From: Alphaproteobacteria bacterium MarineAlpha10_Bin3
GTDB taxonomy: Bacteria; Pseudomonadota; Alphaproteobacteria; UBA8366; GCA-2717185
Reading direction: 5' to 3'
DNA: 11,351 nucleotides
Assembly: GCA_002937525.1 (NCBI GenBank)
Contig: PTKA01000005.1
Location: 1-11,351, forward strand
The translations under genes and the position numbers were made by a program. Below, piece after piece: positions 2,330 to 8,328 of the stretch. Within the stretch, counting starts at the first letter, position 1. Each line of letters begins with the position of its first letter. The notes beneath the pieces were generated by a model, which was given only the letters and a program-made list of their open reading frames with translations, did no database searches and was not told where the DNA came from.

Positions 2330-3868
2330 ATGCTCTCCGACCAGTATGGCGTGCCCGCTGCCGACATTGACAACCTGGAAGTGCTTTCCAGCATCCTGGA
2401 GCTGGTGCCGGCGGAGATGGCGCGCCGTTACCTGTTGGTGCCGGTGCAGGTCGACGAAAAAGTCCTCGAGGTGGCGATGGTCGACCCGACCGACGTCGTC
2501 GCCATGGACGACCTCAAGTTCGCCACCGGCTTGCGTATCCAGCCGATGGTCGCCGCGGAGCGCGCCGTGACGGAAGCCATCGAGCGCCTCTACGGCGCCC
2601 AGGACGACAACCAGATCTCGCAGATGATGAACGACCTCACCAGCGAGCTGAACTCTCCCGGTGAGCTCGAGATCGTCGACACCGACGAGAACATCGACCT
2701 CGAGTCGCTATCGGCGGCCTCGGGCGAGGCGCCGGAAAAATCCCTGGCCTGGGTTTCCGCCTGTTCGGGCAATGGCGATTGCATCGACGCCTGCCAGGAC
2801 GGGGTCAATCCGCGCTTCATGATCAAACTGGCCCGGCTGGCCCAGAACAAAAAGCGCGACATTCAGACCATCCGCGCCGACGGCAAGGCCCGCTTTCAGA
2901 AGATGGCGCGTTCGGTGCGGGTCATCTCCCGCCTGCAACTCACCACCGAGGAGCTTTTCCGCCTGACGCGCGCACCCCGGCAACTGGACAGCGAACCGGA
3001 TCCGAATGTCGTCTTCTATACCGGATGTAATGTCTTGAAAACGCCTCATATCGCCTTGTTATGTCTGGATGTCATGGACCGGATTGGCGCGCGCTATGCG
3101 GTGTTCGGCGGGCCGTCCAATTGCTGCGGCATCCTGCAAATGCGGGCCGGCGATGCGGCCAGTGCGGGCCGGCAGGGCGGGCGTACACTGGACCGATTTT
3201 TTGGCACCGGTGCCGATGAAGTCCTGTCCTGGTGCCCGACCTGCGACGTGCAGCTTGGCGAAGCCATGCTGCCGAGCCAGCCATCCAACGGCGCGTTCGG
3301 CATGACCATGTTTTCGGTCTATCTCGCCCGGAAACTGGATGCGCTGAAGGAACATTTCGTTCACCGGGTGGAAAAGCGGGTCGGGCTGCACGAACATAGC
3401 GGCACCAATGGCGTGACCGCGTCCGTTCGGACATTGTTGCGGGCGATTCCGGGGCTCGAATTCGTCGAACTGGATCAGCCGGCGGCCGGCTACGCCTGCA
3501 CCGCGCTGGCCGGCACGCCCGATTTCAAGCGTGATTTGCACGCCGAACAGCTTCGTGCCGCCGAGGCGGCGGGAGTGACGACGCTGGCCGGTATCTACCA
3601 TTCATGTCACCGCGATTTTTGCGCCCATGAGCGTGAATGGCCCTTCGAGGTGGTTAATTTCATGGAACTGATCGGCGAAGCCATGGGGCTCTATCGACCC
3701 GACCTCTTCAAGCGCCTGAAACTGATGCAGGATGTCGATGCGGTCATTGCCGAATGCGGCGACATGATCGAGCGCCACAAGCTCGACCGCGACGAGGTCC
3801 GCGACGTGATCCTGAACGACATGTTCGGTGAACAGACCTTGCCGCTCGACCGGTCGCTCATTTCGTAG
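2330..3868 (+). CDS. Fused ORF: PilB/GspE MshEN region joined to a CCG-type (HdrB/GlpC-like) Fe-S oxidoreductase
   Basis: Residues 1-135 from the ATG at 2330 continue a PilB/GspE N-terminal region (DQYGVPAADI, LELVPAEMARRYLLVPV, the acidic DTDENIDLESL linker). In PilB proteins this linker leads into the ATPase core. Here it stops after GEAP and at residue 136 (base 2735) becomes an unrelated Fe-S protein. That part has a C145-x5-C151-x3-C155 cluster motif followed by VNPRFM, then a CCG domain with C233, C265-C266-G and C302-x2-C305. A second, degenerate CCG-like half follows, including YHSCHRDFC. CCG domains bind Fe-S clusters in heterodisulfide-reductase B/D, GlpC and relatives, and pass electrons between thiols, quinones and flavins. 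No Walker motifs are present, so there is no pilus ATPase activity. Codon use changes at the join. The redox half belongs with the downstream genes; the fusion itself may be an artefact. Confidence 0.65.
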   Translation: MLSDQYGVPAADIDNLEVLSSILELVPAEMARRYLLVPVQVDEKVLEVAMVDPTDVVAMDDLKFATGLRIQPMVAAERAVTEAIERLYGAQDDNQISQMMNDLTSELNSPGELEIVDTDENIDLESLSAASGEAPEKSLAWVSACSGNGDCIDACQDGVNPRFMIKLARLAQNKKRDIQTIRADGKARFQKMARSVRVISRLQLTTEELFRLTRAPRQLDSEPDPNVVFYTGCNVLKTPHIALLCLDVMDRIGARYAVFGGPSNCCGILQMRAGDAASAGRQGGRTLDRFFGTGADEVLSWCPTCDVQLGEAMLPSQPSNGAFGMTMFSVYLARKLDALKEHFVHRVEKRVGLHEHSGTNGVTASVRTLLRAIPGLEFVELDQPAAGYACTALAGTPDFKRDLHAEQLRAAEAAGVTTLAGIYHSCHRDFCAHEREWPFEVVNFMELIGEAMGLYRPDLFKRLKLMQDVDAVIAECGDMIERHKLDRDEVRDVILNDMFGEQTLPLDRSLIS

Positions 3869-3905
3869 CGCTGGCCGTATCGTTTCCTCGCATGATAGGC
3901 TTGGC

Positions 3906-3951
3906 GCGAACCATTAAGGACGCAAATGCCGCGAACCGTAAGGACGCAAAT
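3906..3951 (+). repeat. Tandem imperfect repeat that duplicates a ribosome-binding site
   Basis: Two direct copies with a 25-base period, 3906-3927 (22 nt) and 3931-3951 (21 nt), share GCGAACC at their left end and TAAGGACGCAAAT at their right end. They differ only by AT versus G in the middle. Each carries an AAGGA Shine-Dalgarno-like core. The upstream copy is followed by an out-of-frame ATG at 3926, and the downstream copy by the selenoprotein-candidate ATG at 3955. Confidence 0.75.
3940..3944 (+). promoter_or_regulatory. Ribosome binding site that decides the start at 3955
   Basis: AAGGA lies 10 nt before ATG 3955. It supports initiation upstream of the in-frame TGA rather than at the later GTG 4021, which would lack the active-site motif. 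Confidence 0.5.
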
Positions 3952-3954
3952 TCA

Positions 3955-4602
3955 ATGGCGCAGACCGTTACCCTGGAAGTCTTCACCGACTACGTTTGAC
4001 CGTGGTGTTACATCAGTACCGTGCGTATTGAAAAACTGAAACAGAATTTCGACATCGAAGTGAAGCTGGTGCATTTCCCGCTGCATCCCGACACCCCCGA
4101 TGAAGGCCGTTCGCTGGAAGATCTGTTCGCTGGCCGGGGCATGGATTTGAAGGCGAGCTATGCGCGCATGAAGGCGCTGATGGACGCCGCAGGCCTGCCT
4201 TATGGCGAACGTTCGCACACCTATAACAGCCGCCTGGCGCAGGAACTGGGCAAATGGGCCGATACCGTGGATGGCGGCGAGGCGCTGCACGATGCGCTGT
4301 ACCGGGGCTATTTCGTCGACCGGCGCAATATCGGCGATGTCGATGAACTTCTGACGATCGTTGAAGCCGTCGGGCTGCCGGTGGATGACGCGCGCAATGT
4401 GCTGGAAACCCGCAGCTTCAAGGATGCGGTCGATGCGGATTGGGCCAAATCGCATCAATATGGCGTCACCGGCGTGCCGACCTTCGTTGCCGGCGGGCGC
4501 GGCGTGGTCGGCGCGCAGCCCTATGGAGCGATTGCCGATCTATTGACCCAGGCCGGCGCGCTTCAGGCGACGCTCAGCAGTCCCGCCGGCGAGGACGAAT
4601 AG
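3955..4602 (+). CDS. Probable selenoprotein: DsbA/FrnE-family thiol oxidoreductase with a U-P-W-C active site (TGA read through at 3997-3999)
   Basis: Read from ATG 3955 with TGA as selenocysteine, the gene gives 215 residues, the usual size of FrnE-like DsbA-family proteins. The N-terminus has the beta strand LEVFTDYV and then U15-P16-W17-C18-Y, exactly where homologues carry CPWCY. C18 is the only cysteine. The helical insertion follows, and GVPTFV near residues 174-178 supplies the cis-proline loop (P175) that faces the active site in thioredoxin folds. There is no signal peptide, so a cytoplasmic role in thiol-disulfide exchange is likely; the substrate is unknown. The open frame continues without a break on both sides of the TGA, and a SECIS-like hairpin follows it. 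The gene starts 86 nt after the Fe-S oxidoreductase and overlaps the convergent hydrolase gene by 40 nt. The alternatives are a nonsense mutation or a sequencing error at a Cys codon. A start at GTG 4021 would give a 193-residue protein with no catalytic motif, which I consider wrong. Confidence 0.82.
4013..4031 (+). promoter_or_regulatory. Candidate bacterial SECIS element within the coding sequence
   Basis: The bases 4013-4019 pair with 4025-4031 in a 7-bp stem (one G-U pair), leaving the loop CGUGC at 4020-4024. The loop begins 21 nt after the TGA and has G at its second position. Both fit the published general model of bacterial SECIS elements: a G among the first two loop bases, and a distance of roughly 16-37 nt from UGA to loop. 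This would recruit SelB with Sec-tRNA to the TGA. The fold was worked out by eye and has no energy calculation behind it. Confidence 0.6.
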
Positions 4603-6855: not shown

Positions 6856-8226
6856 TCAGGAACTCCAGGGCTGGATGGCTGATTTCAGCGCCTTGTATCC
6901 ATCGATGAATCCGGGGCGTTCGCCAGCATAAATTTCGTCGAATTTTGCCAGCGCCGCATCGAGCCAATCGCGAAGATCGGCGTTATCGGAGTTGGCGTCA
7001 AGATAGGCGGTGCGGATCAAGACAAAATGAATGCGCGGGTCGTAGGGTCGTTTGGTGCCGCCCATGGATTCGTCGCCGTCGAGCAAACGCAGCAGCATGG
7101 CGTCGGCGGAACCAAGGGTCTGCTCGTGGATCGGCGGTCCGGACATGCGGTACATCACCGATGTCATGTCGCGGCCATTGCCCGTCGTATAACCCATCTC
7201 GCCCCATAAATTGTCCATCGATGCGTCCGCGCCAAGATGATCTATCACCAACTGGCCGAACCGGCGCAGCGGATCGGAAACATCGGCAAGCAGATCGGTT
7301 AGGCGGTCGCCGTCGAGATCGGTGGCGAACACGATAACGTCCTGCTTTTCGATCAAATCCCAGAGCAGTAGCCCGTAATTGGTATCGGCGATATGCTGTT
7401 CGATCTGGCCGCTCCAAGTTTTCATGCCATCCTTGAAGCCGTCGGGCAGCAACGCGATAATCCGGTCGACCCGTTCGCGGTTTTCGACATAGCCGTCCAC
7501 GGCCCATTTCCGCCCCACCGAGAATTTCGTGCCTAGCAGCATCCACGAAAGGATCCCTGCATTGATGCCGTCTTCCATGGCCTGGGTCGGCTTGAAAGCG
7601 ACCCGGCCGAGCTTGCCGGTCTCGTTTACCATTCCCAGGAAACGGCGGCACGCATAGGCCATCTGGACACCCGGCGTGTTCATCTCCGAATGAATGATTC
7701 CGGTCTTGGGATCGACATCGAAGACGGCGCGGTCCTGCGAATATGGCAGACAGGGCATGCAGCGGACCACCGTGATCGGCCCATAGGGGCGGACATTGCA
7801 GTACACGCCGGCCTGAGTGCGCAGCGGTGCATTGGCGGATTTTCCCATAACCACGACCTTGCCGCCCTTGCCGTCATTGACATAGGCGTCGCCCGCCGTG
7901 GACCACTTGATCGATGTGCATGGCATATTGCCGAACCATTTCAAGGTCTCCAGCTTGGTGTCGTGCCGGTATTGCGACCACATCGGCACCGCGTAATAGG
8001 GCAGTCCCAGAATATCGATGGCGGCCAGCGTGCCGAGCAGGGCATAGGCGTCGGTCAAGGAATGGGCGACGGGATTGACAACCCCGTCGTGATTTCCGCC
8101 CTTCCAGATTACCGCATCGGGACATCCCTCGGGCATAACATCCGATGGCTCGAAAAGACCCGACAAGAGACCGAACAGGTCGCCGCCTTCGGCTTCGGTC
8201 CGCGCAATATTTATAAGATCTAACAT
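6856..8226 (-). CDS. Conserved-looking protein of unknown function (456 aa) with a CxxC motif
   Basis: I do not recognise this family. The protein is soluble-looking, with no signal peptide or clear membrane helix. A cysteine group stands out: C143, then C156-M-P-C159, with C35 and C103 further upstream. The CxxC could bind a metal or be redox active. The segment GGNHDGVVNPVAHSLTDAYALLG and the later DLDGDRLTDLLADVSDPLRRFGQLVIDHLGAD look like constrained, folded sequence. I chose ATG 8226 because GGGAAG lies 8 nt upstream; the ORF remains open to an ATG at 8319, but that extension is low in recognisable structure. It is the last gene of the minus-strand series and lies 102 nt after the lipoprotein gene, so it may have its own promoter. 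Its 3' end faces tRNA-Arg. Confidence 0.7.
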   Translation of the reverse strand: MLDLINIARTEAEGGDLFGLLSGLFEPSDVMPEGCPDAVIWKGGNHDGVVNPVAHSLTDAYALLGTLAAIDILGLPYYAVPMWSQYRHDTKLETLKWFGNMPCTSIKWSTAGDAYVNDGKGGKVVVMGKSANAPLRTQAGVYCNVRPYGPITVVRCMPCLPYSQDRAVFDVDPKTGIIHSEMNTPGVQMAYACRRFLGMVNETGKLGRVAFKPTQAMEDGINAGILSWMLLGTKFSVGRKWAVDGYVENRERVDRIIALLPDGFKDGMKTWSGQIEQHIADTNYGLLLWDLIEKQDVIVFATDLDGDRLTDLLADVSDPLRRFGQLVIDHLGADASMDNLWGEMGYTTGNGRDMTSVMYRMSGPPIHEQTLGSADAMLLRLLDGDESMGGTKRPYDPRIHFVLIRTAYLDANSDNADLRDWLDAALAKFDEIYAGERPGFIDGYKALKSAIQPWSS

Positions 8227-8328
8227 CTGGATGTCTTCCCGTGAATTTTGGGTTGCAATGGTAAGCTGATTCGGAAATTGGGGTGTCGACACATTACCGC
8301 GCCGTTGCCCCAGGGGCAATCTTGCGTC

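Follow-up and report, generated by a model that had tools for sequence, protein, structure and literature searches.

Does an in-frame TGA in a thiol-disulfide oxidoreductase gene of a marine alphaproteobacterium interrupt the gene, or is it read as an amino acid? The window analysed here, a stretch of 11,351 nucleotides of contig PTKA01000005.1 (assembly GCA_002937525.1), holds a FrnE/DsbA-like gene at 3955–4602, with 215 codons followed by a TAG stop and with a match to the Pfam family DSBA; this gene and its features given below lie on the forward strand. Its frame is open from the ATG at 3955 to the TAG at 4600–4602 except for a single TGA, at 3997–3999, which takes the place of the first Cys in a DsbA-type CPWC motif. 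A preliminary description of the sequence had given these positions and the length of 215 residues, all of which were confirmed, as were the residues flanking the TGA, LEVFTDYV-U-PWCYISTV.

Comparison of the column across genomes and loci leads us to read the TGA as selenocysteine 15, the U of U-P-W-C. Judged from comparative sequence data, the gene almost certainly encodes a small FrnE-like oxidoreductase of the DsbA superfamily, probably cytoplasmic, in which selenocysteine is the nucleophile. By comparison, the TGA is conserved in one column, is exchanged with Cys codons only and is followed on its 3' side by a conserved and covarying hairpin; together with a tRNA-Sec and a partial selA in the host and SelB in its relatives, this upholds the selenocysteine reading of the preliminary description.

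Gene start and active site

The codon of Cys18, which we expect to act as resolving residue in the redox pair, is a TGT at 4006–4008, and it is TGT or TGC in all mapped loci that cover the column. If U is replaced by C, the letter C occurs twice in the protein, so C18 is its sole true cysteine, as had been noted. The expectation that conventional gene calling would begin at the GTG at 4021 and lose the active site was also borne out, since the frame in the mechanical ORF list runs from this GTG and is 193 residues long, and P0002, the closest protein in the database (96% identical across 90% of the query), likewise has 193 residues, starts with MRIEKL and is without the active site. Automatic annotation would call the gene without its active site, yet it is very probably a working selenoprotein. 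No NCBIfam profile scored above its cut-off against the selenoprotein.

It could be argued that the gene callers are right, and that the true protein starts at the GTG while the part before the TGA is untranslated; 47 of the best 120 of 8000 scored database matches also begin downstream of the site. This is very improbable, however. Residues 1–14 are conserved in the relatives, the three bases at 4021–4023 are GTG in just 15 of 33 TGA-containing sequences (the remainder have GGG, GTT or GTC), and the shorter product would be without the first beta strand as well as the active site. The GTG, which lies in the loop of the hairpin described below, is probably no start.

Among the same best 120 matches, 69 have CPWC, three have RPWC and one has CPWF, two DFVCPW proteins being counted as CPWC by their printed start. 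The three RPWC proteins (P0005, P0027 and P0031) carry Arg at the Sec position together with the Sec-type peptide S-T-V/G-R. As CGA is one base from TGA, they may represent a variant, an error or a real loss of selenocysteine.

An exact 13-nucleotide direct repeat is found just upstream of the ATG, at 3915–3927 and 3939–3951. The second copy holds AAGGA, seen by eye, and is from its position the likely ribosome binding site. There is also an 11-nucleotide near repeat at 3902–3912 and 3927–3937.

Conservation of the TGA

A search of 144 genomes, the host's own included, gave matches at E<=1e-20 in 39. In 22 of these (own included) the match was at 56–100% identity, and all 22 have TGA at the column. 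The remaining 17 matched at 28–35% identity, and the eight of them that were compared (L035–L042) have Cys codons. Within the host's own family the TGA gene was found in nine of ten other genomes, the tenth (G008) being an assembly that is 62% complete. The best 80 of 129 named loci gave TGA in 15, TGC or TGT in 64 and a missing column in one (L097); two of the TGA loci, L043 and L044, are the same sequences as loci of the 144-genome search. A sample of the class (385 genomes) held 15 other genomes with matches at E<=1e-40, and an in-frame TGA was reported in each; two of them (G053 and G122) had already been met in the 144-genome search, and in all 13 new loci the TGA is exactly at the column. 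Homologues with Cys and others with TGA at the same column, which the preliminary description had named as support to look for, were thus both found, and in the loci compared no codon other than TGA or a Cys codon was met at the column.

Taken alone, an in-frame TGA in a single draft metagenome assembly would suggest an error of sequencing, or that a nonsense mutation had recently turned an ordinary CPWC gene into a pseudogene. The same TGA is, however, present in 21 other genomes of the 144-genome search, in the 15 named loci with their overlap of two, and in 13 further genomes, one of which (G340) is a single-contig assembly. The frame is also otherwise intact and conserved on either side of the codon. 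TGA at the column in all 22 near genomes and in frame in all 15 class-sample genomes is beyond chance, and an explanation by error or decay has hardly any probability left.

In a sample of the phylum (398 genomes) the window's own gene was the sole match at E<=1e-40. By the class and phylum samples, the gene is thus confined to some alphaproteobacterial families as judged from the sequences, and neither sample holds a Cys form at this threshold. The titles of metagenome bins among the named loci also mention Planctomycetes, Acidobacteria, Chloroflexi, SAR324 and Pseudomonadales; some of these contigs may be misbinned.

The Cys homologues of the same clade (from Rhodospirillales and SAR116 bins, for instance L051 and L083) have the same length and the same conserved residues as the selenoprotein, and the 64 Cys loci among the best 80 of 129 are 42–66% identical to it. 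They differ in having CPWC, mostly followed by G-D-x-R where the Sec form has S/C-T-V/G-R, and in not keeping the hairpin.

Two further stop signals were set aside. A second stop in some TGA loci was taken as the terminal stop; in L136, L140 and L145 its position is given, and it falls where the alignment ends on the C-terminal side. A second homologue in the host (contig C216, 2676–3299) was reported with two TGA codons, but its own site is CPWC, with Cys at both positions, and we regard this DsbA-like protein, 24–26% identical, as an ordinary Cys protein.

A hairpin after the TGA

Once duplicates had been removed, 35 TGA loci and 64 Cys loci remained; from these, 33 and 55 distinct N-free stretches of 54 bases were compared. 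Counted from the T of the TGA, bases 17–23 pair with bases 29–35 in the TGA set, and enclose a loop of five bases in which the second is invariably G (33 of 33 sequences). In the window this SECIS-like hairpin occupies 4013–4031, with the stem formed by 4013–4019 and 4025–4031, the loop at 4020–4024 and the invariant G at 4021. RNAalifold on its own predicts the five inner pairs of the helix.

The folding energy of the window hairpin is ordinary (z 0.57; 145 of 200 shuffled sequences equal or surpass it), and covariation was therefore used as evidence instead. Over the seven pairs 97.4% of 231 cells are paired, as compared to 90.1% in shuffled alignments and 24–46% when the helix was slid. Two-sided changes occur in 14 cells over the 33 distinct sequences against a shuffled mean of 2.8, and the covariation score of the helix was reached by none of 500 shuffles. 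Two of five covariation measures, the number of pairs with a two-sided change and the further pair types, showed no excess over the shuffles. Thirteen later TGA sequences, which had no part in defining the helix, all keep the seven pairs; the third pair is U-A in two of them, and the fifth is C-G in two. Pairing in the 55 Cys sequences varies along the stem: it is seen in 7% and 16% for the two innermost pairs, in 35–65% for three others and in 93–95% for two.

By its pairing, its place just after the TGA and the G in its small apical loop, the predicted element is a bacterial SECIS-type hairpin. An Rfam scan of the window and of five loci returned no SECIS family. The missing Rfam match in the window, the ordinary folding energy and the two measures level with the shuffles are counted against the selenocysteine reading. 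The gene brings with it a densely sampled, covarying set of SECIS elements and matched Cys homologues, which is enough for a family model.

Genes for selenocysteine insertion

The host assembly, which is 64% complete, comprises 2.3 Mb in 502 contigs. It holds a tRNA-Sec of 67.8 bits (cut-off 47) on the minus strand of contig C189 (locus L006, 1080–1175), and ARAGORN agrees, with the anticodon TCA. A long frame that follows it on the same strand and runs off the contig matches nothing in Pfam or NCBIfam. The assembly also holds the N-terminal part of SelA (353 bits, positions 3–276 of 455), which stops three bases short of a contig end. The preliminary description had proposed a search for selA, selB, selC and selD in the genome; selC and the partial selA speak for its reading, while SelB and SelD gave nothing over the cut-off in this 64% complete assembly, which we count against it. 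With that completeness and with selA running off a contig end, the lack of a selB match neither refutes nor upholds the reading. The host's matches to TIGR00475 and TIGR00476 fall well short of cut-off, and we ascribe them to other proteins.

A survey covered 48 genomes picked from the 144, of which 21 carry the TGA gene and 27 lack it. SelB was found in 18 of the 21 TGA-bearing genomes as compared to 2 of the 27 others (G008 and G069), a tRNA-Sec of at least 68 bits in 18 against 2, and SelD in 17 against 3. At least one of the three is present in each of the 21. Weak tRNA-Sec matches of 49.6–53.9 bits in genomes without SelB, which we ascribe to other tRNAs whose variable arm is long, were not counted; this leaves G002 without a counted tRNA-Sec. 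Both G002 and G053 have the TGA gene but SelD alone of the three, and this is counted against the selenocysteine reading. SelD also serves other uses of selenium. Orphan SelD has been reported (PMC5029168).

The SelD matches of six TGA-bearing relatives (G004, G005, G007, G009, G019 and G028) themselves hold an in-frame TGA, and SelD is therefore probably a selenoprotein there.

A changed code or a suppressor tRNA that inserts Trp, Cys or another amino acid would also leave the frame open, but TGA is used as a stop in the window, where it ends five of the eight main reading frames, the column swaps with Cys codons alone and the host has tRNA-Sec and selA, so that this explanation is extremely improbable.

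Fold and probable function

The selenocysteine-containing protein matches Pfam DSBA (PF01323) with 111 bits, against a cut-off of 25.6. The best solved relatives by sequence are Deinococcus radiodurans FrnE (E 5.8e-22) and SCO1869 (E 1.4e-21). An AlphaFold model built with 41 aligned sequences has a mean pLDDT of 93.2, and when it was compared with Foldseek five FrnE entries ranked first (TM by query length 0.81–0.85, rmsd 5.8–8.5), with SCO1869 next.

D. radiodurans FrnE (DR_0659; 5cnw, 5co3, 5coh, 5cp1 and 5xwh) shares the DsbA fold and a CPWC-type site with the window protein at 29–31% identity, and has Cys where the window protein has Sec. The C-terminal CxxxxC of DrFrnE (PMC8945050) is missing from the window protein, in which C18 is the only Cys. 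According to the same source this motif occurs in many FrnE proteins while some are without it. The name FrnE/DsbA-like given in the preliminary description therefore fits the fold, but not the C-terminal motif of many FrnE proteins.

No signal peptide is evident by eye, and the protein is thus probably cytoplasmic; FrnE proteins are predicted to be cytoplasmic as well (PMC8945050). DrFrnE is described as having disulfide isomerase and insulin reduction activity, and disruption of its gene makes cells sensitive to cadmium and diamide (PMC8945050). By analogy with the role that has been proposed for DrFrnE, the window protein likely repairs oxidised thiols of proteins in the cytoplasm.

We expect synthesis and catalysis to proceed as follows. 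SelB carrying Sec-tRNA-Sec would bind the hairpin, and the UGA would be read as Sec15. As in thioredoxin-fold enzymes, Sec15 would be the nucleophile that attacks the disulfide of a substrate, and Cys18 would resolve the mixed bond. A cellular reductant, likely thioredoxin or glutathione, would then restore the Sec15/Cys18 pair. The C-terminal CxxxxC of DrFrnE has been proposed to serve in regeneration (PMC8945050), and since the window protein is without it, the route of the electrons must differ.

Relation to described selenoproteins

Selenoproteins of this kind are already in print. The Sargasso Sea selenoproteome of 2005 lists a new family, "DsbA-like protein", with nine sequences, COG2761, a UXXC motif and a predicted SECIS (PMC1088965), and D. 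radiodurans frnE has been assigned to the same COG (PMC1978522). This agrees with the statement in the preliminary description that DsbA-like selenoproteins had been reported, and it answers what was left open there, whether a U-P-W-C FrnE-like form had been described: it had, as the DsbA-like UXXC family under COG2761 (PMC1088965). By their description, the Sargasso proteins resemble the present one in the PF01323 domain, the UxxC motif, the widespread Cys homologues and the SECIS after the TGA.

Later sources count or tabulate the family. Four DsbA-like selenoproteins were counted in 2006 (PMC1794560), and a table row "DsbA-like protein 41 45", which we read as organisms and genes, stands in PMC5029168. 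A family with PF01323 and UxxC is tabulated in PMC9312934, and again as "DsbA-like protein form 1, PF01323, UxxC" in a 2026 review (PMC13188914); in PMC9402790 the name DsbA-like was met in the abbreviation list only. With its PF01323 domain and U-P-W-C the window protein fits this definition. The 2006 table lists one selenoprotein family for Alphaproteobacteria (PMC1794560), so the host group extends at least that table.

A literature search for selenoprotein or selenocysteine together with FrnE gave no title or abstract opening on a FrnE selenoprotein, and one for selenoprotein together with COG2761 gave PMC1088965 alone. As far as these titles, abstract openings and tables go, it is the name FrnE that is not met for the family, while the family itself is already in print. 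For the specialist, the gene is an expected member of a family printed since 2005, now well shown in alphaproteobacterial families.

Sec and Cys forms in the clade

In a quick tree built from 103 rows, of which 35 are Sec, 64 Cys and four distant, the Sec rows and the Cys rows each call for three changes, or four with the outgroup taken as Cys. Since 35 of the 100 inner branches are unresolved and the placing of the root is uncertain, no direction of the exchange is claimed.

The clade may tentatively be seen as a natural record of this exchange, a view to which we give somewhat less than even weight. The Sec form would be old and widely carried, by alphaproteobacteria and by the bins whose titles name Planctomycetes, Acidobacteria, Chloroflexi, SAR324 and Pseudomonadales, and after a turn to Cys the hairpin would decay and the residues that it had imposed, S/C-T-V/G, would give way to G-D. 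If this is true, the hairpin has shaped the protein beside its own active site.

One Cys form, L075 (967–1575), keeps T-G-R-I-E after the site, and its stem is, by eye, partly broken. From its sequence it may be a recent conversion from Sec to Cys.

Neighbouring genes

Flanks of about 1.5 kb for the genome loci and of up to 4 kb for the named loci were compared with the window. Among the six other main genes of the window there was a single recurrence in the flanks of relatives, a sulfatase match in L044. A frame of 487 residues on the minus strand (6856–8319) has no Pfam match. Upstream of the selenoprotein gene, at 2330–3868, a protein of 512 residues combines by Pfam an MshEN domain with a Cys-rich CCG domain like that of heterodisulfide reductase, a pairing that is to our knowledge unusual.
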